Assembly (NCBI GenBank): GCA_022376465.1
Contig: JACDTU010000015.1
Location: forward strand, 620,001-684,000
Origin: Cubamyces lactineus
Taxonomy: Eukaryota > Basidiomycota > Agaricomycetes > Polyporales > Polyporaceae
Direction of reading: 5' to 3'
DNA length: 64,000 nucleotides
The translations under genes and the position numbers were made by a program. The notes beneath the pieces are model-generated. The model ran no database searches, had not been told where the DNA came from, and saw only the letters and a program-made list of their open reading frames with translations. This document shows, piece by piece, positions 27,441 through 56,816 of this stretch (positions are counted from its first letter, which is position 1; every line of letters begins with the position of its first letter).

Positions 27441-27447
27441 TTTCTTC
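27441..27447 (+). repeat. 7-bp target-site duplication of P1 (left)
   Basis: TTTCTTC immediately before the left terminus, repeated exactly at 32507-32513 after the right terminus. Confidence 0.7.
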
Positions 27448-27559
27448 CACTAGTGGTCACCACAGATTGTTAACAACTGCCCACGTAGGTGGGGAAATTC
27501 TCGTGGAAGACCTGCCAACTCGATATACAAATACAAATGGCCCACCTCATTGAGAATCA

Positions 27560-28770
27560 ATGACACTATGGATTTTCAATGGGAGTGGGGCTTTTGTAGT
27601 AGTGTATTAACAATTGTGCCACATTTGTAAATGAGATGCATAAATAATGCCCCCACGTATGATACACAATAGCTGGATCGTACATGGACGTGGGTGGTTT
27701 GTATATCCCTGCAATACACAATCCACCCACGTCCAATGTACAATAGCTGAATTGTAGATGGACGTGGGTGATTTGTAGATGCCTCTGATATACAATCTGC
27801 CCACGTCTGATGTACAAAAGCTGGATTGTAGATGAACGTGGGCAGTTTGTAGATGTCAATAGCTGGATTGTAGATGGACGTGGGTGCTTTGTACATGCCT
27901 CTGATATACAATCTGCCCACATCTGATGTACAATAGCTGGATCGTACATGGACGTGGGCGGTTTGTATATCCCTGTGATACACAATCCACCCACGTCCAA
28001 TGTACAATAGCTGAATTGTAGATGGACGTGGGTGATTTGTAGATGCCTCTGATATACAATCTGCCCACGTCTGATGTACAAAAGCTGGATTGTAGATGGA
28101 CGTGGGCGGTTTGTGGATGTCAATGGCTGGATTGTAGATGGACGTGGGTGATTTGTACATGCCTCTGATATACAATCTGCCCACGTTTAGCTTGATTGTA
28201 GATGGACGTGGCAGTTTTGTACATGCCTCTGATATACAATCAGCCCACGTCTGATATACAATAGCTGGATTGTATATGAACGTGGCAGTATTGTATATGA
28301 ACGTGGCAGTATTGTATATGAACGTGGCAGTTTTGTATATGAACGTGGCTGGATTGTAGATGAACGTGGGTGATTTGTACATGCCTCTGATATACAATCT
28401 GCCCACGTTTAGCTTGATTGTAGATGGACGTGGCAGTTTTGTAAATGCCTCTGATATACAATCAGCCCACGTCTGATATACAATCAGCCCACGTCTGATA
28501 TACAATAGCTGGATTGTATATGAACGTGGCAGTTTTGTATATGAACGTGGCAGTATTGTATATGCCTCTGATATACAATCTGCCCACATTTAACTTGATT
28601 GTATATGGACGTGGCAGTTTTGTACATGCCTCTGATATACAATCAGCCCACGTCTGATCTACAATAGCTGAATTGTATATGAACGTGGCAGTTTTGTACA
28701 TGCCTCTGATATACAATCTGCCCACATTTAGCTGGATTGTATATGGACGTGGCCACTTTGTAGATGCCAC
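27560..28770. repeat. P1 left-arm CCCACGT array
   Basis: Irregular tandem units alternate GACGTGGGC, TTGTACATGCCTCTGATA and TACAATCTGCCCACGT blocks. The mirrored copy occupies 31184-32394. The periodic frame produces repeat-only open frames on the minus strand. Confidence 0.85.
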
Positions 28771-28796
28771 TTTTGTATTACAACTACTATCTGGGC

Positions 28797-28985
28797 ACTT
28801 TCTAGCGCTTTTTGGGCTCCTATTTGGGCGCTTCTTCAACGCTTTTGGGCGCTTTTTTGGCTGTTATCTGGGCGCTTTTTTGGCTGTTATCTGGGTGCTT
28901 TGTGGGTTGTTATCTGGGCGCTTTTTTGGCTGTTATCTGGGCGCTTTTTGGGTTCCTATTTGGGCGCTTTTTGGGCGCTTTTTTG
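28797..28985. repeat. P1 GGGCGCTTTT minisatellite
   Basis: Short imperfect units built on GGGCGCTTTTTTGG and CTGTTATCTG; mirrored at 30969-31157. Confidence 0.8.
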
Positions 28986-29902
28986 CGTCCAAATAGGGCA
29001 GGCATATTCAACACCTTCCTGCCCTCCTCTTCTGGGGCCCTATTAGGGCACCCTGTTGGGCCAAAAATATACATAGCATGTATGTATATGCCATAGTACA
29101 TCTCTGTGTGCATAGTGATGCAATAGTGCAGGGAAAATAACCAAAAAATGCGACCCTAGGCCAAGGGCCACCAGGAGGGGACCACTGCAGGGTGGCTGGC
29201 CTGGCTTCCTCTGGTCCAATTTCTGTGAGTAATATATCATTGGAGAGGTGCTTGAAAGGGCTTTTCAACGCATATTTTTGCAGGAGGAACCATGCAAAAT
29301 TGGTAGAAATATGGATCATCGCATTTTCGCCAAAAATGGCCATTTTGTTTCCTTGATTGCTCAGCACACAGGTGTCCCCTCATGTTTCCCTTGGTACCGT
29401 TCAATTCGCGTTTTCAAGGGCTTTCTAACAGTAGTACATACATGGCATTCTGACCACATGCATTGACATCCTTCTCCTGCCCCTCCCTCACTTTACCACC
29501 TCATAGCTCCTGCAGTTCTTTGTCTTTCTCTGTGAAGTCTTTTGATATCTGTAGTATACATACAGAACTATGTATTTATTGCTTTTTACGCCCTAATATG
29601 GCCTATCCCCAATGGAATCCATCTAGGTGCATTTTCGCACTTTTCAGATTCTCCCCTCCATATCTCTGCACCCAGAGCAGCTATTGCCTTTGTTCTTTTC
29701 GCATTTTGTGCCTGGACATTGCTACTACATGTCTGTAGAAGCTCATTTTTATCGAATGCAGCGATCAGAATTGAGCTCCTTATCAGCTGTGGCAGGCAGA
29801 TCCTGTTTTGGCTTACATTCAGGGCATTATTTTCTGATCAGATAGCACATTCATATTCTACTCGTCTATAGCTACCTGTAACAACAAGAATCATGGGATT
29901 TG

Positions 29903-30051
29903 GTGAAGAATTGAGTGAGCTACAGTGAATGGACCTCCTGGACACCCAAAGTTGCAGTGTGTGCAGTTGCACTGCTCCGGAAATGCATGCAGTGCATTGC
30001 TGAACAGGCAGCATTTGGTGCCTCTGGGCCATATCTCTGCAACCACTCCTC
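29903..30051. other. P1 hairpin loop (central spacer)
   Basis: The 149-bp non-palindromic centre of P1. Its reverse complement is closely related to the centre of P2 (38041-38187), so the loop is a conserved family part and gives the element a polarity. Confidence 0.8.
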
Positions 30052-32506
30052 CAAATCCCATGATTCTTGTTGTTACAGGTAGCTATAGACGAGTAGAATA
30101 TGAATGTGCTATCTGATCAGAAAATAATGCCCTGAATGTAAGCCAAAACAGGATCTGCCTGCCACAGCTGATAAGGAGCTCAATTCTGATCGCTGCATTC
30201 GATAAAAATGAGCTTCTACAGACATGTAGTAGCAATGTCCAGGCACAAAATGCGAAAAGAACAAAGGCAATAGCTGCTCTGGGTGCAGAGATATGGAGGG
30301 GAGAATCTGAAAAGTGCGAAAATGCACCTAGATGGATTCCATTGGGGATAGGCCATATTAGGGCGTAAAAAGCAATAAATACATAGTTCTGTATGTATAC
30401 TACAGATATCAAAAGACTTCACAGAGAAAGACAAAGAACTGCAGGAGCTATGAGGTGGTAAAGTGAGGGAGGGGCAGGAGAAGGATGTCAATGCATGTGG
30501 TCAGAATGCCATGTATGTACTACTGTTAGAAAGCCCTTGAAAACGCGAATTGAACGGTACCAAGGGAAACATGAGGGGACACCTGTGTGCTGAGCAATCA
30601 AGGAAACAAAATGGCCATTTTTGGCGAAAATGCGATGATCCATATTTCTACCAATTTTGCATGGTTCCTCCTGCAAAAATATGCGTTGAAAAGCCCTTTC
30701 AAGCACCTCTCCAATGATATATTACTCACAGAAATTGGACCAGAGGAAGCCAGGCCAGCCACCCTGCAGTGGTCCCCTCCTGGTGGCCCTTGGCCTAGGG
30801 TCGCATTTTTTGGTTATTTTCCCTGCACTATTGCATCACTATGCACACAGAGATGTACTATGGCATATACATACATGCTATGTATATTTTTGGCCCAACA
30901 GGGTGCCCTAATAGGGCCCCAGAAGAGGAGGGCAGGAAGGTGTTGAATATGCCTGCCCTATTTGGACGCAAAAAAGCGCCCAAAAAGCGCCCAAATAGGA
31001 ACCCAAAAAGCGCCCAGATAACAGCCAAAAAAGCGCCCAGATAACAACCCACAAAGCACCCAGATAACAGCCAAAAAAGCGCCCAGATAACAGCCAAAAA
31101 AGCGCCCAAAAGCGTTGAAGAAGCGCCCAAATAGGAGCCCAAAAAGCGCTAGAAAGTGCCCAGATAGTAGTTGTAATACAAAAGTGGCATCTACAAAGTG
31201 GCCACGTCCATATACAATCCAGCTAAATGTGGGCAGATTGTATATCAGAGGCATGTACAAAACTGCCACGTTCATATACAATTCAGCTATTGTAGATCAG
31301 ACGTGGGCTGATTGTATATCAGAGGCATGTACAAAACTGCCACGTCCATATACAATCAAGTTAAATGTGGGCAGATTGTATATCAGAGGCATATACAATA
31401 CTGCCACGTTCATATACAAAACTGCCACGTTCATATACAATCCAGCTATTGTATATCAGACGTGGGCTGATTGTATATCAGACGTGGGCTGATTGTATAT
31501 CAGAGGCATTTACAAAACTGCCACGTCCATCTACAATCAAGCTAAACGTGGGCAGATTGTATATCAGAGGCATGTACAAATCACCCACGTTCATCTACAA
31601 TCCAGCCACGTTCATATACAAAACTGCCACGTTCATATACAATACTGCCACGTTCATATACAATACTGCCACGTTCATATACAATCCAGCTATTGTATAT
31701 CAGACGTGGGCTGATTGTATATCAGAGGCATGTACAAAACTGCCACGTCCATCTACAATCAAGCTAAACGTGGGCAGATTGTATATCAGAGGCATGTACA
31801 AATCACCCACGTCCATCTACAATCCAGCCATTGACATCCACAAACCGCCCACGTCCATCTACAATCCAGCTTTTGTACATCAGACGTGGGCAGATTGTAT
31901 ATCAGAGGCATCTACAAATCACCCACGTCCATCTACAATTCAGCTATTGTACATTGGACGTGGGTGGATTGTGTATCACAGGGATATACAAACCGCCCAC
32001 GTCCATGTACGATCCAGCTATTGTACATCAGATGTGGGCAGATTGTATATCAGAGGCATGTACAAAGCACCCACGTCCATCTACAATCCAGCTATTGACA
32101 TCTACAAACTGCCCACGTTCATCTACAATCCAGCTTTTGTACATCAGACGTGGGCAGATTGTATATCAGAGGCATCTACAAATCACCCACGTCCATCTAC
32201 AATTCAGCTATTGTACATTGGACGTGGGTGGATTGTGTATTGCAGGGATATACAAACCACCCACGTCCATGTACGATCCAGCTATTGTGTATCATACGTG
32301 GGGGCATTATTTATGCATCTCATTTACAAATGTGGCACAATTGTTAATACACTACTACAAAAGCCCCACTCCCATTGAAAATCCATAGTGTCATTGATTC
32401 TCAATGAGGTGGGCCATTTGTATTTGTATATCGAGTTGGCAGGTCTTCCACGAGAATTTCCCCACCTACGTGGGCAGTTGTTAACAATCCGTGGTGACCA
32501 CGACTG

Positions 32507-32513
32507 TTTCTTC
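32507..32513 (+). repeat. 7-bp target-site duplication of P1 (right)
   Basis: TTTCTTC, an exact match to 27441-27447. Confidence 0.7.
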
Positions 32514-32526
32514 ATCATCTGCTGCC

Positions 32527-33607
32527 ATGCCCCTGCCGCCGCCTGCTCAGCGCCGCTACGTTTGTCCTTGCAACGTATGTCGGAGCGACCCCCGACAGAA
32601 GCAGACACTGCCGACTACCAACGCGCACCGGAAGAGAGAGCGAAAGACACGGGATGCTGCCCTTCGCGCTCCTGTACCCCCTACGCCTGCTGCAGAACAC
32701 CCTGAAGACTTAGCGAGGACCCACTCGGACAGCCGCATGGGCTCCGTCGAGAGCTCTGGCTATGTAGCGACTCGACCTGGTGACTTGGCTTGTGACACTC
32801 TTGCTGTTCGACCCCTGGCCTCTGTGGACGACGACTCGGGCGACGACTCGGGCGACGACTCGGGCGACGACTCAGGCGACGACTCAGGCGACGACTTGGG
32901 TTGCCCGCGATTGGATGTTCCCTTCGAAGTGAATGCCCCTGGCAATCATGCTCCTGGTGACGACGACGACGACAACAACATGAGTAGCTCTAGCAGCTCT
33001 GATACTGAGAGCGATCTACAAGGCTTCGCTGTCTCGGAACTGCGCCCTACTTCCCCTGCCTCTGATAGCTCTGACGACGAATTCTTCGACGTCAATGAAG
33101 ACGATCCACTGTATGCACATCGCGAGACACTCTATGCTGAAGAGCCTGATCGCGAGCCCGCGCGGGATGCACGAAGGGTTGCGCCCGCCTTGCATGAACA
33201 TCCCCTGGTACGACGAGCGTATGTTCAAGCATTTATAGCTGCTGCTTTCCATGGGGCTACACACGACCTGGCTCAGTATATGCTTGAGTCTGCACACGCT
33301 ACCCTCGTAGGGGTCTCTGAAGACGCTAGCTACGACATCCCTGGCCTTGATCACATGGCTCGCACCCTCCGCACTGCTGAACGTCGACTTGGCTTGGATC
33401 CGGACGAACATATCACGTACTACGCTGTCTGCGACATGTGCTGGGACTGCCATCATCCTGGCGAACTCAACAGTCTCCCTGTACATGGCAAATGCACGAA
33501 ACCTGGCTGCTCTGGACAAGTCTTCGAAACCAAGTGCTATAGCGACGGCCACAAACGTCGTATTCCTGTCAAGGTGCTCGCGACGACAAGCCTAAAGGCA
33601 GAGGTGC
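32527..33607 (+). pseudogene. N-terminal part of a basidiomycete transposase-like protein
   Basis: Open from the ATG at 32527 (MPLPPPAQRRYVC) until the P2 terminus at 33609, about 360 codons. The pattern resembles N-terminal regions of the large transposase-like proteins common in basidiomycetes (Tnp2-type, CACTA/CMC group): an early CPCNVC cysteine cluster, an acidic middle with five GDDSGDD-type repeats, then TAERRLGLDPDEHITYY, VCDMCWDCHHP and a second cysteine cluster GKCTKPGCSGQ, ending RRIPVKVL. No DDE catalytic core is present because the frame is interrupted by P2. Likeness ends at KVL (33582); the next 25 bp may already be copia-derived. A possible C-terminus of the same type lies at 52409-52902 on the same strand. 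Family assignment is from memory of the pattern only. Confidence 0.55.
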
Positions 33608-33744
33608 ACAGTCGTGGTCACCACTCATTGTTAACAATAGCCCACCTAGGTAGCAAAACCATTGTGGAAGACGTGGCCACATCAAGTACAATGATAAAAT
33701 GCCCACAAGGTTTGATAATGAAGAATCACTGAATTGTAATTGGA

Positions 33745-35813: not shown

Positions 35814-37199
35814 TGTTGAACGAGGAGCGACGCGGGAGCGAGAACGGGTAGATTGTGGCTCGAGAAAAAGCGTAGATACATGCGATGTTCGTGTACCAGA
35901 CGAAGGTTTAAGGTTCAAGCTCCGACGTTAAGCGCCAGGCTTCGTACGAGACGCCTACACTACAACACGCCCACTCGGCGAGGTACGAAGCACAAGAAAT
36001 AAAGACTGCGCCCACTGAAAACGGCAAATGATACAGAAAAAGCACAAAACACACAGTAAACACGCACACATAAGCCGCTACACCAGCATCGAGTCGACCC
36101 TCCAAGCATCCCAGCTCGTACTTGTCGCACTCCTCCAGTCTCGCAAACTCAGAACACGTAAATAAGCAATAAAAACGCACATCTAACTCTAGAAAAGCCT
36201 GATAACGTCATCATTAACACGGATAGTCTTCGCATGTAGTGGGAGGTCCAGTTTTGCAGTGTCCGCAGTGTCTGATGGCACGGGCTCGGTAGCACGGCAG
36301 TAGCGAGCGATGTGGCCGGGGGCCTGACAGCGGTGGCAGATGACGGGGGAACGGGGGGCTCCAGGTGCTTGACGGGTGCGGGCAACGAAGGCAGAGGTCG
36401 TAGAGGGATCACGGTCCTTGTTGAGTTGCTCCTCAGCATCGACAAGGGCGGCAGCAACAGTGGAAACGGATAGGTTCTCTTGATGCATAAGGGTCGTGGC
36501 AGCGGGATGGAAAGATGGATGCAGGGCGAATATCAGAATGTCGACTATGTCTTCATCCGAGAGGGTGATGCCAATGCTTTTGAGGCGTGCAACGAGAGTG
36601 GTGATACCGGCAACATACTCGATGATGGGGCGCTCGGTGTTGTGGACAAATGTGTAGAGTTGGCGCTTGAGCATGATGCGATTGGCGCGACTGTGACGCT
36701 CATAGATGTCCTCGAGGGCCTTCCAGGCAGCGGGGCCGGTGGTACAATCGCGGATGTACTGCACCTGTGTCTGGTCTACGGCAAGACCGATGGCGGTGAG
36801 GCCTTCCTCTGAGAGCTTATCCCAAGCTATGGACTCCGAGGGGTTCGCAGGACGCGTGTCTGTCCCATTGACAACAGTCCAGCAGCCTGAGCGGCGTAGA
36901 ACCATGGACATGTTGAACTTCCAGTCGTGGTAGTTCTGTCCATCGAGTTTGGGCACGGACGCGAGTAGCGCATTGACGTTTGACATAGTGGAAATGCAGA
37001 GAGTGACGCGAAGCAGGAAGTTAGGCGAGAGCAGGGCTCATAACCTGTTGAACGAGGAGCGACGCGGGAGCGAGAACGGGTAGATTGTGGCTCGAGAAAA
37101 AACGTAGATACATGCGATGTTCGTGTACCAGACGAAGGTTTAAGGTTCAAGCTCCGACGTTAAGCGCCAGGCTTCGTACGAGACGCCTACACTACAACA
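35814..37199 (-). mobile_element. Gag-only LTR retrotransposon (TR-GAG-like, copia group)
   Basis: Two 154-bp LTRs (35814-35967 and 37046-37199) begin TGTTGAACG and end CTACAACA. They differ by one base that I can see (AAAAAGCG versus AAAAAACG). Flanking 5-bp duplications AAATC lie at 35809-35813 and 37200-37204. The undisturbed mirror arm of P2 reads straight through this point, proving insertion. On the minus strand the internal part starts at GGTTATGAGCCCTG, a copia-type binding site for the anticodon-region half of initiator tRNA, and contains a single gag gene. No protease, integrase or reverse transcriptase fits in 1386 bp, so it is non-autonomous. Confidence 0.9.
36189..36986 (-). CDS. 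Copia-type Gag protein of the gag-only element
   Basis: 265 codons from ATG at 36986. The N-terminal half has the usual copia Gag/UBN2 pattern (LDGQNYHDWKFNM near residue 14, then GPAAWKALEDIYERHS, LKRQLYTFVH). One CCHC zinc knuckle lies near the C-terminus (CHRCQAPGHIARYC). The protein would form particles and bind RNA. It ends shortly after the knuckle with RVNDDVIRLF and has no protease fusion. The uninterrupted frame and nearly identical LTRs suggest a recent copy that may rely on another copia element's enzymes. Confidence 0.88.
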   Translation of the reverse strand: MSNVNALLASVPKLDGQNYHDWKFNMSMVLRRSGCWTVVNGTDTRPANPSESIAWDKLSEEGLTAIGLAVDQTQVQYIRDCTTGPAAWKALEDIYERHSRANRIMLKRQLYTFVHNTERPIIEYVAGITTLVARLKSIGITLSDEDIVDILIFALHPSFHPAATTLMHQENLSVSTVAAALVDAEEQLNKDRDPSTTSAFVARTRQAPGAPRSPVICHRCQAPGHIARYCRATEPVPSDTADTAKLDLPLHAKTIRVNDDVIRLF

Positions 37200-39571: not shown

Positions 39572-40113
39572 TGTTACGCTTTCGAGCGTGACTCTTAAAC
39601 TATCAAGCCTTAAGACGTCAATGAATAGAGAGCTTGTATCTATTCAGCTACTAGCCCTAGCTTGTCGAAGATAAGCGCGTAGTAGTGTTTACAGTTGAGA
39701 GCGAGTTAACGAGCAACCAAAGTCGTATTTCGCGAAGAGACTGAAAGCTGAGGGTCGCTCTATGGCGTCGCCTCTTATATACATGTATGCAGGCCTGTAG
39801 ACGGAATGTTCTAGCGTGTACATGGACTTTCTGGTGCGTAGTAGTCAGCGCTAGTCGAACCTAGTAACACTGTGGCAGTGCTGCTGTGGACTGTGCAGAA
39901 GCGCCTGTGCACTGCGCGGAAGTAACTGTGCACTGTGCAGCAGTAACTGTGCATAGAAAGTCCTAGAGAGTCCTAGATAATACGAGACCATTCCTGTCTT
40001 TAAGAACCGTAGCTAGAATCCTAGAGTCCGCCATATTCGTATAGTACAGAGACAGAAGTAGAGACCATACCAAATCGTACAGTTCGTAAGACGCCTATCG
40101 TACATTTGTAACA
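39572..40113 (-). repeat. 3' LTR of chromovirus (outer)
   Basis: 542 bp, identical-looking to 49778-50319. On the minus strand it is preceded by the polypurine tract GCGGAGGGGGAGC (within 40114-40140). Confidence 0.9.
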
Positions 40114-40147
40114 TTAGCTCCCCCTCCGCTGAAGGTCGTCCTCGACC

Positions 40148-41427
40148 TTAGGCATGCACGATAATGTTCTGGTTACGCTCGACGACCTCAGGACGGAAGA
40201 CGTCCAAAGAGATCTGGACGAGGTCAGACACGTTACCTACTGCCCGAATACAATCCCACTGCGCCGATTCCGCCGCCGACATGCCTATAGCCTGGCGATA
40301 AGTCGTCGGGGTGCGTTCGGCCTCGATCTTGAAGGCAGGGAAATTTCCTCGACGAGCAATGACATCGTCGATAAGGAGAGAGGCTGCCATTGTGGTTCTG
40401 ACAGAAGCTTCCGGCCATCGCAGATGGTATGCGACCATGATCCGAGTGACGGAGATGCCGAAAGGATTGTTGGGGACCACGAAGATGTCGCCGTTGGAAT
40501 TGACATAGCCAAGTCGATCTTCTCCGGTTCCTCGAAAGAAACCGCAGCGTCCGCGAGGTTCTTCAGCGTTCTTAGTGAGAGTCGCTGGTGGGGGAGGAGG
40601 AGGAGAGGGTGCCCTAACCGCGACCTTCAGGGCTTCGTGGAACTCCTCCTCAAGGAGCTCGTCGACCTCGTCAACCGTACTGAGCTCGAGATGCTCAAGC
40701 TCCGGGAGAAGGTCGAACGATTCCACCTCGGAGTAAGGTGAATCCGAGCGAGATGAAACCAAAGAGGGGGTGGACTCCTCAGAGGTTTGTCCCCACTTGA
40801 CGGCTTCTTCCTCGGGGTCTGGAGTAGCAATCTTCCATGGGTCAGTTGAGGGAACTGACCATCCTCCGACTGAACTCACGTCCGCGTCTTCATCCTCATC
40901 TACCTCGATAGACTCCGGGTAGTCATCGAGACGTTGCGGCCAGAAAATATGTCCCCAGTTATGAGTACCGTGTTGGTTGCGGAGGGGCATGAGATCCGAG
41001 AGAGCCCCCGCGATCTGGGGGTTAGCGAGCATCGAGAGTACCTTCTCTGCTCCTTGGATCACCGCCTGGTAAGCCTCGTTCGCAACCTGATCGACCTTCT
41101 TCTTCTCCGACTTGGGCGCCGACGTCCTCTTGTTATAGTTGACGAGAACTCCGTAGGACGGAGCAGCCCTGGCGAGAGAGCGGTAGACGTCGATGAGGTC
41201 CTTGACCTCAGGGAGATGAGAAATTCGAGCCTCTACGTGACTGTAGAGGTCGGGGTGGACAATGACCCAGCCGATGCGGTCGGCGAGGGTGCCTTCGTCG
41301 TTGGCCGAGACAGTGTGTCGAGGGAGGTGGTTGTAGAAAACCGTCCTCCGTTCGCGGATGAAGTTGGGGGGACGGGGAATGTTGCGTCTGGAAGCCTCAG
41401 AGAAGCGGCGACCAGTAAGATGAGTGC
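40148..41427 (-). pseudogene. Second, 5'-truncated copy of accessory ORF3
   Basis: The frame runs from the middle LTR border (41427) to the stop at 40148 and aligns along its length with the complete ORF3 at 41992-43287, starting at HLTGRRFSEASRRN instead of MVYTNTRLTGRR. The first in-frame ATG is 41062. Apart from the missing start it has no obvious break. It ends NQNIIVHA versus NNAIVHL in the full copy. It is separated from the rest of the element by an internal LTR and would not be translated from its own start. Confidence 0.8.
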
Positions 41428-41957
41428 TGTTACGCTTTCGAGCGTGACTCTTAAACTATCAAGCCTTAAGACGTCAATGAATAGAGAGCTTGTATCTATT
41501 CAGCTACTAGCCCTAGCTTGTCGAAGATAAGCGCGTAGTAGTATTTACAGTTGAAAGCGAGTTAACGAGCAACCAAAGTCGTATTTCGCGAAGAGACTGA
41601 AAGCTGAGGGTCGCTCTATGGCGTCGCCTCTTATATACATGTATACCAGCCTGTAGACGGAACGTTCTAGCGTATACAAGGACTTTCTGGTGCGTAGTAG
41701 TCAGCGCTAGTCGAACCTAGTAACACTGTGGCAGTGCTGCTGTGCACTGCGCGGAAGCGACTGTGCACTGTGCAGAAGTAACTGTGCATGGAAAGTCCTA
41801 GAGCATCCTAGATAATACGAGACTGTTCCATAGAATCCGCCATATACAATCGTAGCTGGAGTCCCAGAGCCTACCATACTTGTATCGTACAGAGTAAGTA
41901 CTAGAAACCGTTACCAGTTCGTCGAGACGTCGCAATACCTATTGTACATTCGTAACA
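41428..41957 (-). repeat. Internal, divergent LTR
   Basis: About 530 bp, beginning TGTTACGC and ending TTCGTAACA. It is clearly related to the outer LTRs but with many substitutions and small deletions, so it is an older lineage. A second polypurine tract (GCGGAGGGGGAGC, in 41958-41985) borders it. Confidence 0.88.
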
Positions 41958-41991
41958 TCAGCTCCCCCTCCGCTGAAGGTCGTCCTCGACC

Positions 41992-43287
41992 TTAGAGGTG
42001 AACGATAGCATTGTTTCTCTCGACGACCTCAGGACGGAAGACATCCAGGGAGATCTGGACGAGCTCCGCATCGCTACCTACTGCTCGAATGCAGTCCCAT
42101 TGAGCAGTCTCTGCCGCCGACATGCCTAAAGCCTCGCGATAAGTAGTCGCGATGCGTTCAGCGTCGACCTTGAAGGCGGGGTAATTTCCACGCCGGGCGA
42201 TGACATCGTCGATGAGTAGGGAGGCGGCTTGGGTGGTCCTGACTGAAGCTTCCGGCCATCGGAGATGGTATGCGACCATGATCCGAACGTCAGAGATGCC
42301 GAAGGAACTGTTGGGGACCATGAAAATGTCGCCTCGAGAGTTGATGTATCCGAATCGATCTTCTCCGGTTCCACGAAAGAAACCGCATCGTCCATGGGGT
42401 TCCTCGACGTGCTTGGTGATCGTAGTCGGGGGAGGAGGAGGCGGGGAAGGGGCCCTTACTGCGACTTTCAGGGCTTCGTGGAACTCCTCTTCCGAGAGCT
42501 CGTCGATCGTGCTAAGCTCTAGTTGTTCGAGCTCAGGGAGTAAGTCGAAAGACTCGACTTCCGAATAGGAGGAGTCAGAACTTGAGGAGGATAGGGTCGG
42601 GGTCGACCCCTCAACTGAAGTCGGACCCCATTTGATGGCTTCCTCCTCAGGATCAGGAGTGGAAACCTTCCAAGGGTCAGTCGAGGGAATGGACCATCCA
42701 CCATCCGAGCGTACCTCGTCCTCGTCTTCTTCCTCATCCGAAGAATCGACCTCGATAGCTTGCGGGTAGTCATCGAGGCGTTGCGGCCAAAAGACATGCC
42801 CCCAACTATGCGTACCGTGTTGGTTACGCAGGGGCATCAGGTCCGAGAGTGCTCCCGCGACCTGAGGGTTAGCGAGCATAGAAATTACTTTCTCTGCCGC
42901 TTGAACCACTGCCTGATAGGCCTCGCTCGCAACTTGAACTACCTTCTTCTTCTCGGACTTGGGCGCCGACGTTCTCTGGTTGTGTTTGATGAGAACAGAG
43001 TAAGAGGGGGCGGCCCTGGCGAGAGCGCGGTAGACGTCGATGAGGTCCTTGACCTCAGGAAGATGGGCAATACGGGCCTCGACATGGCTGTAGAGGTCGG
43101 GGTGCACGATGACCCAGCCGACACGATCGGCGAGGGTGCCCTCGTCGTTGCACGAGACGGTGTGTCGGGGAAGATGGTTGTAGAAAACAGTGCGCCGTTC
43201 CCTAATGAAGTTGGGGGGACGGGGAATGTTGCGACGAGTCGCCTCAGAGAAACGACGACCAGTAAGACGAGTGTTGGTGTAGACCAT
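41992..43287 (-). CDS. Retrotransposon accessory protein ORF3 (unknown function)
   Basis: 431 codons, ATG at 43287, lying 67 nt downstream of the pol stop in the position where some retroelements carry a third gene. It starts MVYTNTRLTGRRFSEATR. Later come LMPLRNQHGTHSWGHVFWPQ, an acidic run (DSSDEEEDEDE), a serine/proline-rich linker with a seven-proline run, GRCGFFRGTGEDRFGYI and IMVAYHLRWPEASVRT. There is no signal peptide or membrane segment, so it does not look like an envelope protein. I do not recognise a family. Its duplication with an open frame in the same element argues that it is a real gene of this retrotransposon lineage. Confidence 0.75.
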   Translation of the reverse strand: MVYTNTRLTGRRFSEATRRNIPRPPNFIRERRTVFYNHLPRHTVSCNDEGTLADRVGWVIVHPDLYSHVEARIAHLPEVKDLIDVYRALARAAPSYSVLIKHNQRTSAPKSEKKKVVQVASEAYQAVVQAAEKVISMLANPQVAGALSDLMPLRNQHGTHSWGHVFWPQRLDDYPQAIEVDSSDEEEDEDEVRSDGGWSIPSTDPWKVSTPDPEEEAIKWGPTSVEGSTPTLSSSSSDSSYSEVESFDLLPELEQLELSTIDELSEEEFHEALKVAVRAPSPPPPPPTTITKHVEEPHGRCGFFRGTGEDRFGYINSRGDIFMVPNSSFGISDVRIMVAYHLRWPEASVRTTQAASLLIDDVIARRGNYPAFKVDAERIATTYREALGMSAAETAQWDCIRAVGSDAELVQISLDVFRPEVVERNNAIVHL

Positions 43288-43354
43288 AGTGAATAGAGGA
43301 GAAATTTGTTCAGAAAATTCGAAGAGATATTGGGTGAGGAGTGGGTTGAGTCTT

Positions 43355-46300
43355 TCACGACAACTTGTGCCTCTTCTTATAGTTGCGCAAGATCGACTGC
43401 GCGTTCTTGAGATGTCTTTCTGGTTCCCAAGAATTTTCCGATGCGGGCCAGCCCTTCCAAGCCACTAGATACTGCTTTTGGGTACCTCTAGTGCGGTGGC
43501 TCAGAATTGCTTCTACCTCCCATTCCTCTCCTTCAGTTGATTCAGGAGTGGGAATCGGTGGAGGTCGGACATAGTCTGGTCCGTGCTCCTTAGTTGTGTG
43601 GTACGGGGTAAGTAGCGCTGCGTGGAAGACGGGGTGTATCTTCCATTTCTCCGGAAGCTTTAACTTAAATGTAACCGGTCCCAAGACCTTGACGATGGTG
43701 AACGGTCCCACTCGTTTTGGAATCAACTTCCTGGAGACATATGGAAGCCTGAGGTTCTTTGTATCGAGAAGAACCTTGTCTCCGAGCTTCAGCGGAACTT
43801 GCGCAGCGGGGAGCCTTCTTGACATAGCTGCGGCGGCCTGCGCATGCGCCGCTATTGTATTCTCCCTGGCTTCCTGAAGACTTTGAAGCCTCTGCTCCGT
43901 ACTTGGATGCTTTGGGGTGGTTCGGACTGTCCCAACGGCCTCTGGCTGAAACCCGTAGAGTAGCTCAAACGGGGATTTTCCCGTGACAGAGTGTGTCCGC
44001 TGATTGTGCGCGAATTCGAATTGAGGCAGCAGTTTGGCCCAGTTCTCCGGATTGTTAGCACAGTAGAGCCGAAGTGCTAAGTCGAGTTCTTGATTTACTC
44101 GCTCCGTTTCCCCATCTGTCTGAGGATGGTAGGCCGTGCTGAGTGCCGTTTCAATTCCGAGGCTATTGTGTAGTTCTTTGAATGCCTTGGATATGAATTG
44201 CGGCCCTCGATCCGAGATGACCTTTGCAGGTAGTCCGAATCTGCGATATACATCCCTTTGCAGAATATCCATGGCTCCTTCTGCCGTAATATTCTTGGTG
44301 CAAGGGGAAAATACCGCTGCCTTGGATACATCATGGTCAACTACCACTTGGACGGCATTGAATCCATCCGACTCTGGTAGATCCGTGATATAATCCATTG
44401 TAATGGTCCGGAAAGGCCTAGTATCCCCACTGTGTTGAATGGGAATTAAGCCTGGTTTAATGGGATGCGTATTGACCTTGCTTGTTTGGCAAGCGGCGCA
44501 ACCTTTGACATATTGCACAATGAATTTCCGCATGCCTGGCCACATATATTCCCGTTTAACCAGATCGTAGGTTTTCTGGACTCCTGGGTGTCCCATAATC
44601 GGTGCGTCGTGATGCATCTTGACTATATCACGATACAATTGATTATCTGGTGGAACATATACCCTGTTCTTGTACAGGAGTATTCCGTCATCGTCGGACC
44701 AATCTTCTGGTTTGCCGAACTCTGGGCGTTTGATAGCCTTTCCTTTTAGGGTAATGTACTCTACTACCGAGCTGTCCCGTAGCTTGCTATCGCGGATGCG
44801 CTCTTGTAGCTCAACGTTGACAGCTTTGGCAAAAAGTTCTGGTCCCAATAATACGACATCCTTGTTGTCATTTTCCCCCCCGTCATGCCCTGATCTCCGA
44901 GAAAGGGCGTCTGCTTGAGTGAGGGATTTTCCGGGTTGGTGCTTGATTACGATGTTGAACTCCGAGAGGAATAAATGCCATCGTGCCTGCCTGCGATTTA
45001 GCTTCTGCGCCGTACGGAAGTAGGTCAGATTTTTGTGATCTGATAGAATTTCTGTAGGGTGTGGGGAACCCTGCAAAAAATGCCGCCATGCTTCGAGGGC
45101 TCGAACAATGGCCAACAATTCCCTATCATAAATCTGATAGTTCCGTTCCGCAGGAGTAAAGGACTTGGACAAATAGGCACAAGGATGCCATAGTCCGTCC
45201 TCTCCTTGCTGTCGTAGTACAGCACCTGTTGCGACTTTAGAAGCATCGCACTCAATCTGAAATGGTTTCTCCGGATCCGGGATTTGCAGGATCGGTTCTT
45301 CAGTAAACCGCTTCTTGAGTGTGTCGAATGCTTTCTGACAATCAGGGGTCCACAGAAAAGGCTGGTCCTTCTTGGTTAATTCCGTGAGGGGTCGGACTAT
45401 CTTTGAATAATCCCGAATGAACCGTCGGTAGAAATTACCGAACCCCAGAAATGCCTGAACCTGCTTGACTGTTTTCGGTGGTTCCCACTCGATAATTGCC
45501 TTTAGCTTTACTGGATCCATAGCGACTACCCCCGGTCGGATTATTGATCCTAGGAATTCGACTTCTTGTCTGTCGAATTCGCATTTTTCCGCTTTGAGGA
45601 ATAGATCACTGTCTTGAAGTCGCTGTAAAGCTCTTCGCGTCCGCTCATGGTGATCCTCGACATTGTCTGAGAATATCAGGATGTCGTCCATATAAATGAC
45701 CATCCATCCTTCCTGGAGCATGTCTCGGAAGAGGTCATTCATCATGTTTTGGAATGTGGCCGGTGCATTGCACAGACCAAAAAACATGACTGTTGGTTCG
45801 AACAATCCACTGGGTGTTATAAACGCAGCTTTCCACTCATCGCCCTCCTTGATGCGCACATTATTGTACCCTGCTCTCACGTCGAGTTTGGTGAATATTG
45901 TGGCCCCCTTCAGCCGGTCAATGATGTCGCTGATGAGCGGCAAGGGATATGCGTTTTTAATAGTCCCCTCGTTAAGAGCCCTGTAGTCTTGAACAGGTCG
46001 AAGACTCCCATCTTTCTTGGTGACAAAGAAAAATGGCGAGGCTAGTGGAGACTTGGATTTTCGAATGTAGCCCTTCTCAAGGTTCTCCGCAATGAATTTG
46101 TCGAGTTCTATACGTTCCGTATAGGTCAGAGGGTAGATTTTCCTCCAAGACCCCTTGGTATGATGGTCGAAGTCCTTCTTGAATTCGATAGCATGGTCCC
46201 ATGGTCTCGAGGGCGGAAATCTACTTGCTGCCTTTTTCTCAAAGACCTGTCGATAGTCCTTTACAAAATCAGGTAGGATTTCGTCTAGGGTCTTCTCCTT

Positions 46301-47016
46301 CTGGTCTTTCTTCGCTGCTATAGCGATCTCCGTAGACTTATTAATCTTTCGGATTTTCTTCTTGCGGTACCATAGCTCGATGGCCCTCGAAGGATTAAAT
46401 GTAAGCCTTTCGGAGTCTGGGTCTGCGTCGTCCTCGTCCGGTATAGCACGTACGAACGATACGACCAGGTCTTGATTTAGAGGTTTTACTGGGAAGTTCC
46501 ACAGCATCCCTTCAGGTGGGTCGTGCTCGCATTGGTATTTGTGGATCTGCTGCTGTTTCTTGATAATATCCGACTTGAAAGTAATGCGACCACTTTCCCA
46601 GTCGATATTAGGATTGTACTTGCGGATCCATGGCATGCCAAATAGGACATCGTCCCGCCCAATGTCAGCCACATACCAATTTGTTGGGAGCTTCTTCCCT
46701 TGGAGATTAAATGTCCCCTCCACCCGATGGGTAATGGTTCCCATGCTATTAACGCTATCGTCCGCGTTCCGGAAAGTCAGAGTCTTTGGTAGTCTGACTG
46801 TCGGAAGATTGTACTTGTCCACAATCTTTTTATTGACGATCACTGCGTCCGCACCAGTGTCGATGAGTCCCTTGATTTCGACGGCTTTGTCCTGAACCTG
46901 CATGTAACCGGGTATCAGCAGAGCACTGCGTCTCCGCTCTGTATTGGTTACAATAGTTACATGCAGTTCCTTGGGCAAGTCAGGCGTCGAGTCTGCTTGC
47001 CTGCCTAAAAACCCGT
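43355..47016 (-). CDS. pol: Chromovirus Pol (protease, RT, RNase H, integrase, chromodomain)
   Basis: The frame is open beyond 46978 (a TTG codon) and overlaps the gag end, so Pol is probably made by -1 frameshifting at 47014-47008. Counting from 46978 it has 1207 codons. Domains in order are an aspartic protease with IDTGAD (near residue 40), reverse transcriptase with YMDDILIF, RNase H, an integrase zinc finger (HHDAPIMGHPG, CAACQ), a DDE core (MDYITDLPE, ISDRGPQFI, ETERVNQEL), the GPF module (KRVGPFTIVKV), and a C-terminal chromodomain YLVAWKGWPASENSWEPE, which targets insertion to chromatin. No internal stop. Length and order are normal for Ty3 chromoviruses. Confidence 0.95.
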
Positions 47017-48879
47017 CTCAAAATCTGTAGCCCTGAGTGCGTTAATAGAAATATTGTCCTCTTCGTCCTCTTCGTCCTCTTCGTCTGAGATTTCTTCAGA
47101 CTCGTCCTCTAAGTCCTCGTCGGTAACCTGTCGTACCTTCCGACTGACAGGTTTGCCGGGCTTCTTAGGTTTAGAAGGACAGTCTCTAGAAATATGTCCC
47201 GGCTTCCTGCACCGGAAGCATAGTCCCTTGTCTTGCAGCTCCTGTCTCTCCTTGACAGAGAGCTTGTTAATATCGAGCGAGTCGTCCTCGATATTAACCG
47301 TCTTGACGTTCTTCCTAGTCTTCAAGGTTTTGGCCTTGCGTCCTCTGCGATTAGCCAAAATCTTTTCCGTAAGGTGATAGCTATGGTCGATCTCCTTAGT
47401 CCTAGTCATCCACTCTTCAATGGTCGTCGGCGGAGGGTACGACATGGATATCTTCTTCAGTAAATATTCTGGAAGCGCATTCCTGTACAGGGCCAGTTGC
47501 GCTGCTGGGTCCAGAATTTTTCCCTTGAGAGCTAGATCCATGAACCTCGCATTGAACTCATCGACTGAAGAGTAGTCCTTGAGCTGTATCGTCGTGAGAT
47601 TAACCATAGAGTCGTCCACCTCGTCTACTGGGGCAAAGGCGAGTAGGAAATTCCTCTTGAAGACCGGCCAAGAGTCAAATCCTCGATAGACTCCCGGTCT
47701 AATTTCCTCTTCAGCTCGCTGAATTGTGATGTCCTTCCAGTAGTTTATATTGTCCCCTTCCATGAAGGATAGGGCCGTCGCCACCTTCGTGTAATCATTA
47801 ACGAAGTCGTGGGGTCGCGCCGTGAACAACAGGAACAGTTGATTGAGGAAGGACCTGGTTTTGTCTCGGTCTCCGTTGAAGACCTCAGGGTCCTTGATCT
47901 TGCCCTTTCCGTGTCCTTGCGGCGCATTTCCTGGAGCTTCTTGCGGTTCCGGGTCTGGGTCTGGTCCTGGTGGTCCTCCTCCTGGGGAGTAGGGATCTGA
48001 AGGCTCAGGGTCAGGCCGACCTCCGGGCCTACCTGGTCCGCCTCCTCCTCCACCTCCAGAAGGATTGATAACTCCTCCAGAAATTGCCGTTGCCCGAGGG
48101 GCTGGTCCACTTGATAAAGACCCGTATCTTTCTCCTTCTGAGCCTTGCCCTTGCGGAGTGAACGCATATCTATGGGCTCCAGAAATGGACTCTCCTGTCA
48201 CTGTTCCCGACATGTACGATGGTACTGATTTTCGTACAAATTCTGGGGTTGCGCTGCGACCAGTATACTCCAATTCAGATTTAGTCTCCTCGACCTCTGT
48301 CTGAATATGCTCTTCTCTCGGTTCAGGTGTTTCTGCCTCTACCCGAGTGTCTTCTGTTTTCGGTGCAGGTACTACGACCTTAATCCGAATAGTTTCTTCG
48401 ATTTTCGGTTCAGGTGCTTCGACCGTCGTCCGAAAAGGCTCGTCCTCCTTGTCCGAGTCCTCTACCTTAGGCGGTTCGGTCTCCTTTCCTTTCTCCTTGA
48501 AGGATGGACCTGATTCCTTAGGTGATTCGGATTCTTGAGGTTTTGGGGTTCCTACTCTTGAAGTCGGAAACGATCCTGACACAACTCTCGGACTATTAAT
48601 CCGACCAGTAGCTTTTCCAGCAAGTAGTGGCTTCTTGACTAACGCGGGTTGTCGTCCGTGGGTGTTAGTAATATCCCGCTCTTGTGAAGAGTGTGTTAGG
48701 ATTAAAGCCGATGCGTGCTTGACGTTTGGAACCTCCTTAGTGTTGTACCGAAGTGGACACCTTTCGTTGGTGCAAAAATTCCACTTGTCTACGCTTTCTC
48801 GATAGTATACGTCCCGAGCTTTGTCGGAGTTGTAGAGATGATATAACCTTGAACAACTATATGGTTCAGCTGAACTCAT
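47005..48879 (-). CDS. gag: Chromovirus Gag
   Basis: 624 codons from ATG at 48879. The N-terminal half is long, acidic and proline/glutamate-rich with no recognised domain. It is followed by a GGGGGGGPGRPGG linker and a retrotransposon Gag region (FNGDRDKTRSFLNQLFLLF, later YRGFDSWPVFKRNFLLAF, LKDYSSVDEFNARF). The CCHC knuckle CFRCRKPGHISRDC is near residue 555, and the tail is highly acidic (SDEEDEEDEEDN). Its ATG overlaps the ORF0 stop as ATGA, which suggests coupled reinitiation. Gag would form particles and package the RNA. Confidence 0.9.
   Translation of the reverse strand: MSSAEPYSCSRLYHLYNSDKARDVYYRESVDKWNFCTNERCPLRYNTKEVPNVKHASALILTHSSQERDITNTHGRQPALVKKPLLAGKATGRINSPRVVSGSFPTSRVGTPKPQESESPKESGPSFKEKGKETEPPKVEDSDKEDEPFRTTVEAPEPKIEETIRIKVVVPAPKTEDTRVEAETPEPREEHIQTEVEETKSELEYTGRSATPEFVRKSVPSYMSGTVTGESISGAHRYAFTPQGQGSEGERYGSLSSGPAPRATAISGGVINPSGGGGGGGPGRPGGRPDPEPSDPYSPGGGPPGPDPDPEPQEAPGNAPQGHGKGKIKDPEVFNGDRDKTRSFLNQLFLLFTARPHDFVNDYTKVATALSFMEGDNINYWKDITIQRAEEEIRPGVYRGFDSWPVFKRNFLLAFAPVDEVDDSMVNLTTIQLKDYSSVDEFNARFMDLALKGKILDPAAQLALYRNALPEYLLKKISMSYPPPTTIEEWMTRTKEIDHSYHLTEKILANRRGRKAKTLKTRKNVKTVNIEDDSLDINKLSVKERQELQDKGLCFRCRKPGHISRDCPSKPKKPGKPVSRKVRQVTDEDLEDESEEISDEEDEEDEEDNISINALRATDFETGF
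47008..47014 (-). promoter_or_regulatory. Candidate -1 ribosomal frameshift site
   Basis: On the minus strand the heptamer GGGTTTT sits immediately before the gag stop (gag frame ACG GGT TTT TAG). A -1 slip gives GGG TTT TTA GGC and continues into pol. It fits the X-XXY-YYZ rule. Confidence 0.65.
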
Positions 48880-49751
48880 ACACGTTGTGCTTGTCGTAGG
48901 AAAGCCTGATGTAGTTCCCTAGCTCGGAGGCAACTACGAAATTTCCTAAGATTTTCTTCGAGGTCTATATCTGCGTAGTTCTCCGGATTGAGGACCTTTG
49001 CTCGCAGGTAGTCAATCTGGTTCTGAAGATATCCCGCAAAGTTCCGTACCCTCGTTGGAGGCGTAACAGCTTGTCTTGGAATAAATTCGAGTGTCTGGAT
49101 GACCTGAGTTATGTATCGATGGGCTCGTTCGAGAGTCGCGTGATATCTCCTCGTGAAGTCTTCCTGTCCTAGTACTTCCAAGTTATCTGCTATAACTCGA
49201 AGTGTATCGATCGCGTGCACCGGAAGCTGTGTTCTCCGATAGAATATCCCTGCCGTTGAGGATGCTTCTTCAACACTAGTTTCTGGAGTCGATCGATCCG
49301 AACTATCCGTTCCTGGACTCGCTCGGGTTGGAATGGGTACGCCTATTGCTACTCCTGATTCCGCCTGAATGGCCAGAGAATTCCTATATTCTCTCCACTT
49401 GTCTGTTCTCTGAAACGCGGGTTCTTGTTCCGATACTCGAGTGCTCCGACCCGACGATGTCGAACTGGTACTTTCTACGTAAGGGATTGTCGAGCTAAAA
49501 CCTCTTATCAAGGGGAATGGGGATCCTCCTGGCGATCTTGGGAGAGCAACTATATTCTCCGGGATCGCGAGTGGTGGTAAGCTCGGCAGTGTTTTGTTCC
49601 TTCCGCCTAGTACCCTGGGTGATTGTCGCAATGGGGGTTGTGTAGTTCCCTCCGTATTGACTATCGTCTCTCTGTACGTTACGAGCAAGAGAGAGTTCTG
49701 ATGCGTTTCGTAGTCGTTGTCTTCCGACGTAGGCCTCTGCACTTTTAACAA
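48876..49751 (-). CDS. Methionine-free upstream frame ORF0 of the chromovirus
   Basis: About 291 codons ending TGA at 48878-48876, overlapping the gag ATG by 4 nt. The first possible initiator is TTG at 49751; no ATG codon occurs in the frame, which stays open upstream into the LTR. Composition is proline/serine-rich at first, then a helical region (TLRVIADNLEVLGQEDFTRR, YLQNQIDYLRAKVL, LRARELHQAFLRQAQRV). I recognise no domain. It could be an N-terminal Gag part made by frameshifting or non-AUG initiation, or the end of a spliced product. The long open frame without stops makes chance unlikely. Confidence 0.55.
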   Translation of the reverse strand: MLKVQRPTSEDNDYETHQNSLLLVTYRETIVNTEGTTQPPLRQSPRVLGGRNKTLPSLPPLAIPENIVALPRSPGGSPFPLIRGFSSTIPYVESTSSTSSGRSTRVSEQEPAFQRTDKWREYRNSLAIQAESGVAIGVPIPTRASPGTDSSDRSTPETSVEEASSTAGIFYRRTQLPVHAIDTLRVIADNLEVLGQEDFTRRYHATLERAHRYITQVIQTLEFIPRQAVTPPTRVRNFAGYLQNQIDYLRAKVLNPENYADIDLEENLRKFRSCLRARELHQAFLRQAQRV

Positions 49752-49777
49752 GTGGAGGGTTAAAGCTTTCAGTCTAA

Positions 49778-50319
49778 TGTTACGCTTTCGAGCGTGACTC
49801 TTAAACTATCAAGCCTTAAGACGTCAATGAATAGAGAGCTTGTATCTATTCAGCTACTAGCCCTAGCTTGTCGAAGATAAGCGCGTAGTAGTGTTTACAG
49901 TTGAGAGCGAGTTAACGAGCAACCAAAGTCGTATTTCGCGAAGAGACTGAAAGCTGAGGGTCGCTCTATGGCGTCGCCTCTTATATACATGTATGCAGGC
50001 CTGTAGACGGAATGTTCTAGCGTGTACATGGACTTTCTGGTGCGTAGTAGTCAGCGCTAGTCGAACCTAGTAACACTGTGGCAGTGCTGCTGTGGACTGT
50101 GCAGAAGCGCCTGTGCACTGCGCGGAAGTAACTGTGCACTGTGCAGCAGTAACTGTGCATAGAAAGTCCTAGAGAGTCCTAGATAATACGAGACCATTCC
50201 TGTCTTTAAGAACCGTAGCTAGAATCCTAGAGTCCGCCATATTCGTATAGTACAGAGACAGAAGTAGAGACCATACCAAATCGTACAGTTCGTAAGACGC
50301 CTATCGTACATTTGTAACA
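49778..50319 (-). repeat. 5' LTR of chromovirus (outer)
   Basis: 542 bp, identical-looking to 39572-40113. A minus-strand TATA-like GTATATAA lies at 49981-49988. Confidence 0.9.
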
Positions 50320-56505: not shown

Positions 56506-56802
56506 GGTTATGAGCCCTGGTTGATGCTCGGATCTGCGCCTGGCAAGGCTGCGATCCTGATGCTCCCAGCTCAGCTCAGCTGGTTGATGCCAAAGCTTGT
56601 GCCTGGCAAGGCCTTGCTTTTGTGCGCCCAGCAATACCTGGACGTCGCCCTAGTGGGGCTAGACGTTGCGGCCCTTAGTGTGCGCCATGTAGGCTGCACC
56701 TATGCCGCTAGAGCTTAGGGAGTGTTCAGCATTGCTGCCCTTGGCGCCGTTATGGCTGCCTTGTTGTGCGCATGGACAAATGCTGACATTCTGTCTCTAC
56801 AG
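56457..56802 (+). other. Candidate leader intron of the copia transcript
   Basis: Donor GTAAGTGAG in the LTR (56457) and acceptor CTGTCTCTACAG (ending 56802), with a branch-like TGCTGAC at about 56782. The polyprotein ATG is 14 nt beyond the acceptor. Removal would delete the primer site from the spliced RNA. Confidence 0.5.
56506..56520 (+). other. Primer-binding site of copia element
   Basis: GGTTATGAGCCCTGG directly after the 5' LTR. It resembles the copia primer site that pairs with the 5' half of initiator tRNA at the anticodon stem, not with the tRNA 3' end. Confidence 0.65.
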
Positions 56803-56816
56803 ACTCCCTTAACGCC

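Follow-up and report, generated by a model that had tools for sequence, protein, structure and literature searches.

How does a 5-kb palindrome without a transposase frame come to stand in a fungal genome between two copies of a 7-bp sequence, and what keeps its two arms alike? These questions are raised by an element at positions 27448-32506 of a 64,000-nucleotide window of Cubamyces lactineus DNA (contig JACDTU010000015.1; C7:620001-684000 of a 36.3-Mb genome in 43 contigs). Coordinates given without a contig label are window positions, C-numbers denote contigs and labels such as L014 or L028 denote individual foldback copies. As judged from the sequence data described below, the element is very probably a non-autonomous foldback DNA transposon, most likely mobilized in trans by a transposase of the Kyakuja-Dileera-Zisupton (KDZ) superfamily, and its arms appear to stay similar through the copying of sequence between them.

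Self-alignment shows that the 5,059 bp of this focal element form two arms that mirror each other (27448-29908 and 30046-32506, 2,461 nt each), separated by a gap of 137 nt. Chance is no explanation for a mirror of 2.4 kb. Mismatches between the arms are found only at element positions 3 (C/G), 5 (A/C), 17 (A/G), 2457 and 2459, the last two adjoining the loop margin; the tips are therefore unequal, CACTA on the left and CAGTC on the right. An earlier note on this DNA had described 2455-bp arms around a 149-bp loop, which is right within a few bases, and had called the arms identical, which they nearly are, apart from these five positions, two of which lie in the tips. Its 7-bp target duplication, TTTCTTC, is indeed present on both flanks, and its view that there is no transposase frame agrees with the absence of any significant Pfam match (best E 0.09) for the two longest open reading frames (ORFs) of the arms, which are mirror images of 337 aa. 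Since by this Pfam search the element encodes no KDZ transposase, it can belong to KDZ only as a non-autonomous derivative. In an Rfam search of the element, no family reached its gathering score. The organization of the element is as follows.

27441-27447, no strand: left target-site duplication TTTCTTC, identical to 32507-32513
27448-29908, plus strand: left arm, tip CACTA, from self-alignment, with ends aligned across families
Outer ~76 bp of the left arm, plus strand: terminal domain GTGGTCACCAC...GTTAACAACTGCCCAC, common to the ends of other families
27624-28760, plus strand: subterminal tandem and inverted repeats rich in CCACGT/ACGTGG and TTGTA, with approximate borders set by eye and counts compared with shuffles
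28790-29903, plus strand: inner non-repetitive portion of the left arm, whose identity with sister family F2 is 86-87% from ~28999 inward
29909-30045, no strand: loop of 137 bp, found in either orientation relative to the tips among 18 copies
30046-32506, minus strand: right arm, tip CAGTC (read inward), from self-alignment
32507-32513, no strand: right target-site duplication TTTCTTC, equal to the left one

The earlier note had also held that the palindrome behaves as a transposable element, to be recognized by further copies with defined ends and duplications; the genome bears this out, with many copies and with empty sites. Searching the whole genome with the terminus pattern (at most three mismatches, hits sorted by eye) gave 62 ends, of which 44 belong to the family of the focal element (F1; 42 exact, two with one mismatch), 17 to F2 and one to a relict. 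One further tip, at the extreme end of contig C23, lies beyond this count. Thirty-six of the F1 ends pair into 18 complete copies of 3,699-5,737 bp; the other eight are unpaired, several of them close to contig ends. An exact 7-bp target-site duplication (TSD) flanks 16 of the 18 copies (chance 6e-5 per pair) and an 8-bp duplication, TCCGAACT, flanks L024 (flanks compared by eye). In all, 17 of the 18 pairs combine CA..TG ends with a TSD of 7-8 bp. The 22 seven-base duplications (16 from F1, six from F2) have no clear target consensus and a GC fraction of 0.55. L019 and L021, on different contigs, display the same duplication, CGCAGAT, which may reflect chance or target preference.

Empty sites were sought for the 18 copies by joining 150 bp of each flank after removal of one duplication. 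Uninterrupted matches were obtained for two copies, in sequence from the same genome. The empty site of L018 lies in L026 (97.7% over 300 bp), and that of L014 lies in a Gypsy-type pol gene of the window.

46003-46302, minus strand: empty site of L014 (C23:726940-731422), joined flanks 98.7% identical over 300 bp, gap-free

For L025, low-identity partial matches to its own flanks (two rows, 71-74%) were not taken as empty sites. When joined, the flanks on either side of the focal copy match only themselves, each flank being single in the genome, and no empty site was found for it.

Near-perfect palindromes are a minority among the complete copies. Arms mismatched only at the tips and beside the loop are seen in four of the 18 (in the window copy also at position 17), and the remaining 14 show repeat-length or additional base differences between arms. 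The arms of F1 appear to evolve in concert. Across the innermost 1,044 bp, the 18 copies show 22 private substitutions, 17 of which are present on both arms: 14 in L028, where this concerns every private substitution, two in L016 and one in L019. Because each substitution arises on one arm, two-arm private substitutions require copying between arms. The inner arms differ by zero bases in ten copies, and the mean arm difference is 2.56 within copies versus 11.12 between copies. Position 255 is unequal (T/C) in ten copies, T/T in seven and C/C in L016. Likewise, at positions 397-414 the two arms are both of the G type in L028, both of the A type in eight copies and unequal in eight others, L014 not being comparable. 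The loop lies forward relative to the tips, as in the focal copy, in ten copies and reversed in eight, as recombination between arms would produce. No outside donor of inner arm sequence was seen among the 40 of 87 candidate places that were scored; by their coordinates, these 40 lie in F1 copies or fragments, except C16:145722, which lies in an unpaired F2-type end. The inner sequence of that end (C16:145722-148103) is 98% identical to F1, whereas F2 is otherwise at ~87%, and it is possibly an F1/F2 chimera.

Alternatively, arm identity could come from the recent spread of one perfect palindromic founder, with no later copying between arms. The copies are indeed much alike, since five of the 18 show a median of three differences to the arms of other copies over the 1,044 bp. 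We nonetheless find this history unlikely. It does not account for the two-arm substitutions of L028, and the four most perfect copies have arms of 1,781, 2,266, 2,461 and 2,800 bp, all different. Moreover, F1 and F2 diverge by ~13% in the centre and by ~33% at the ends, yet the arms nearly match inside most copies. Finally, asymmetries at positions 255, 397, 404 and 414 are common to several copies and missing from others, in either direction.

As to the transposase, two gene-bearing elements of the same genome have ends related to those of F1. The first (C11:52367-68577; 16,211 bp) has ends of the form CAGTTGTGGTCACCA, the TSD GGGGAGT and arms of 1,777 bp that are 99.9% identical; a KDZ transposase (PF18758, E 3.2e-31) is encoded in it, as is a CxC2 cysteine cluster (PF18803, E 2.7e-36). 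The second (C20:58693-75929; 17,237 bp), with the TSD AATCTCG, tips CAGTC and CACTA and arms of ~1 kb, encloses a PF18758 exon (E 3.3e-28), of which ten proteins, one from Pluteus cervinus, are homologues; a complete F1 copy with its own TSD is nested inside it. The KDZ genes and the Pluteus homologue suggest that the host is a basidiomycete. When the terminal 76 bp are aligned, an F1 end (that of L023) agrees with the two C20 ends in 58/77 and 59/77 columns, and with the C11 end in 49/80. None of 2,000 dinucleotide shuffles reached these scores, with or without the first 16 bp. F1 thus has termini in common with KDZ-encoding elements, through both C20 and C11. The subterminal motifs are shared in part as well. 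The F1 arm contains 12 CCACGT, 20 ACGTGG and 34 TTGTA, versus 0.2, 0.4 and 3.3 expected from shuffles; the C20 arms contain 7/14, 11/10 and 29/35, versus 0.4-0.7, 0.7-1.1 and 2.2-2.6; and only TTGTA and TACAA are clearly raised in the C11 arm, with 10 and 22 occurrences versus 0.7 and 2.2. On these counts the F1 repeats are candidate transposase-binding sites. The earlier note had seen here a candidate for an undescribed system. This is probably not the case, since related termini bound elements encoding KDZ, a described superfamily; a transposase gene, for which it had advised a search between the same termini, was found in the C11 and C20 elements, whose ends are homologous and not identical to those of F1.

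It can therefore be proposed that the focal element is most likely placed, at the superfamily level, as a non-autonomous foldback variant of KDZ. Related elements of the same genome, having a homologous terminal domain, would supply the KDZ transposase in trans for cut-and-paste transposition. This protein would bind the terminal domain together with the CCACGT/TTGTA repeats, cut next to CA..TG and insert the element with a 7-bp stagger. Then, by interarm gene conversion or break repair, each arm would copy the other, so that mutations are either spread or erased, and such copying could alter the number of tandem repeats. The terminal few bases have escaped such equalization in the 18 complete copies, each of which retains one CACTA and one CAGTC tip.

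The sister family F2 comprises eight pairs of ends, one of which adjoins the focal element. Six pairs have one CACTA and one CAGTC tip, all with a 7-bp TSD. A TSD is lacking in both equal-tip pairs, C5:190367-192715 and the window copy, as expected of recombinants, and the window copy is probably one; chimeras of Galileo are likewise described as having no matching 7-bp flanks (PMC3573991).

33609-51294, no strand: second foldback, of family F2, with CAGTC at each tip and without a TSD, interrupted by nested long terminal repeat (LTR) retroelements

Three F2 copies were read fully. With the central stretch set aside, the arms of L094 and L095 are unequal at both tip bases, at one more base and in repeat number. 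L096 aligns poorly between its arms (85 mismatches in 730), which is read as a one-sided deletion. A further family, F6, whose elements measure 2.8-2.9 kb and have TAGTGGTTTCCA-type ends, is located at C3:1374186, C6:763822, C12:2293190, C22:18426 and C41:275681 with their partners. Three of these pairs were read, on C3, C12 and C22; all have CACTA at both ends, and the seven-base duplication is exact on C12, has one mismatch on C3 and is missing on C22. The F6 copies at C22 and C41 adjoin KDZ matches.

Other transposases producing similar duplications have to be weighed. Galileo, a member of the P superfamily, is a close architectural match, reportedly with 7-bp TSDs, long and internally repetitive terminal inverted repeats (TIRs) and chimeras without matching 7-bp flanks (PMC3573991), and F1 might accordingly have been moved by a THAP/P transposase. 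However, the transposase encoded by the two gene-bearing elements whose ends are homologous is KDZ, which makes this origin very improbable; a search of the genome with the P-type profile PF21787 returned no match, its controls being equally silent. Slightly less probable still is a derivative of hAT7, the fungal hAT group which in rust fungi reportedly generates 7-bp TSDs (PMC12730594). The genome does contain ten matches to the hAT dimerization domain, but by their coordinates none lies between paired related ends, whereas two such pairs enclose KDZ genes. The least probable reading is that the mirror was created by the assembly, for which palindromes are a known failure mode: these structures are prone to misassembly and the support here is assembled sequence, yet the 18 complete copies have different flanks, 17 have TSDs, their arms vary in length, their tips are unequal and empty sites exist for two of them.

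Several observations weigh against mobilization by KDZ and copying between arms. Ends identical to those of F1 were found in no KDZ element, the closest ones differing in roughly one of every four positions over the terminal 76 bp. The PF18758 profile matches 61 stretches of the genome, often several per gene, and among the genes behind these matches only two KDZ element families are tied to ends. CCACGT is not raised in the C11 arm (2 versus 1.7 expected), and tandem repetition alone inflates motif counts relative to shuffles; the shared motif is thus a lead, not a proof. Arms of 1-2.8 kb are unusual beside the KDZ elements described in two studies (PMC12730594; PMC12810828). A TSD is missing in two of the eight F2 pairs and in the F1 copy L017, despite its unequal tips. 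With regard to the arms, five of the 22 private substitutions are on a single arm (four in L024, one in L021), and the inner arms of L014, L017, L024 and L025 differ by 8-12 bases. In addition, arm identity is read from an assembly, and consensus polishing may contribute to this identity.

The tips deserve separate consideration. Positions 3 and 5 are unequal throughout the 18 complete F1 copies and the six TSD-bearing F2 copies, and also in the KDZ element on C20, whereas the equal-tip pairs of F2 are without TSDs. In this lineage, KDZ transposition may possibly require two different ends, CACTA and CAGTC, a tentative idea in which selection for one end of each kind would counter arm conversion at the tips. 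Against such a polarity rule stand the C11 KDZ element, with CAGTT at both ends and a 7-bp TSD, the 2.8-kb F6 copy on C12, with CACTA at both ends and the TSD CGTCTCT, and L017, where unequal tips go without a TSD. In view of the equal-tip elements with TSDs on C11 and C12, the rule would be family-specific, if it holds. A passive cause could also be considered, conversion failing at the tips since the flanks offer no homology. The data favour neither cause.

How does such a transposon compare with known systems? In Laccaria, the KDZ elements Kyakuja-1_LB and -2_LB have 7-bp TSDs and CA..TG ends, reportedly no TIRs, and carry a TET/JBP gene (PMC12730594). The elements studied here share the TSDs and termini, and their gene-bearing relatives encode PF18758; they differ in having arms of 1-2.8 kb (1,777 bp on C11, ~1 kb on C20, 1.8-2.8 kb in F1), and the focal element is gene-free. 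A single genome match to Tet_JBP, below cut-off, is found on contig C40. Cryptococcus KDZ1-3, with TIRs of 139-241 bp and TSDs of 4-8 bp (PMC12810828), are similar in combining TIRs, short TSDs and a KDZ transposase, here present in related elements. Unlike the focal element, they bear genes, and foldback derivatives are not mentioned in the accessible part of that report. Galileo and Foldback of Drosophila resemble F1 in their long, internally repetitive TIRs, non-autonomous two-TIR copies, TSD-less chimeras and, for Galileo, 7-bp TSDs (PMC3573991); the TIR repeats of Galileo are stated to contain transposase-binding sites (PMC3688188). By contrast with Galileo, the transposase linked by shared ends is here KDZ. 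The resemblance is one of function, and membership of the P superfamily is not supported.

Foldback KDZ elements look new: no description was found in a literature search, most subscription journals being outside its reach. The KDZ superfamily, with short or no terminal repeats in the cited papers, would gain a branch of foldbacks whose arms reach kilobase length, a counterpart of Galileo in the P superfamily, and this would support a repeated origin of foldback architecture among unrelated transposons. The F1 copies offer a detailed record of interarm conversion, and their unequal tips lead to a testable prediction on end pairing by the KDZ transposase. With candidate gene-bearing partners located, binding and excision assays are feasible.

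The rest of the window contains further mobile elements and genes. Between the F1 and F2 foldbacks, a 360-aa open frame with cysteine motifs (32530-33609) is cut by the F2 end and has no Pfam match. Within the F2 foldback, the sequence 35814-37199 is bounded by direct terminal repeats of 154 bp and has a Copia-type gag as its only ORF (36192-37037; PF14223, E 1e-28), likely with a 5-bp duplication, AAATC (borders by eye); it is a gag-only non-autonomous LTR element. A Gypsy-type element (39572-50319) with a chromodomain pol (43358-47017) and identical 542-bp repeats (39572-40113 and 49778-50319) is also nested there. The ORFs 40148-41455, without Pfam match, and 41992-43464 are similar and lie in a ~1.85-kb tandem duplication (82% identical). 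Further on, at 56787-61733, a Copia polyprotein frame stays open over 1,648 codons (RVT_2, E 5e-71). Three genes of the fungal protein kinase family PF17667 (2906-5152, 18560-19816 and 23751-25991), which mark the host as a fungus, are grouped within 25 kb next to the transposon island, with a fourth, weak match below cut-off at 1382-2284.

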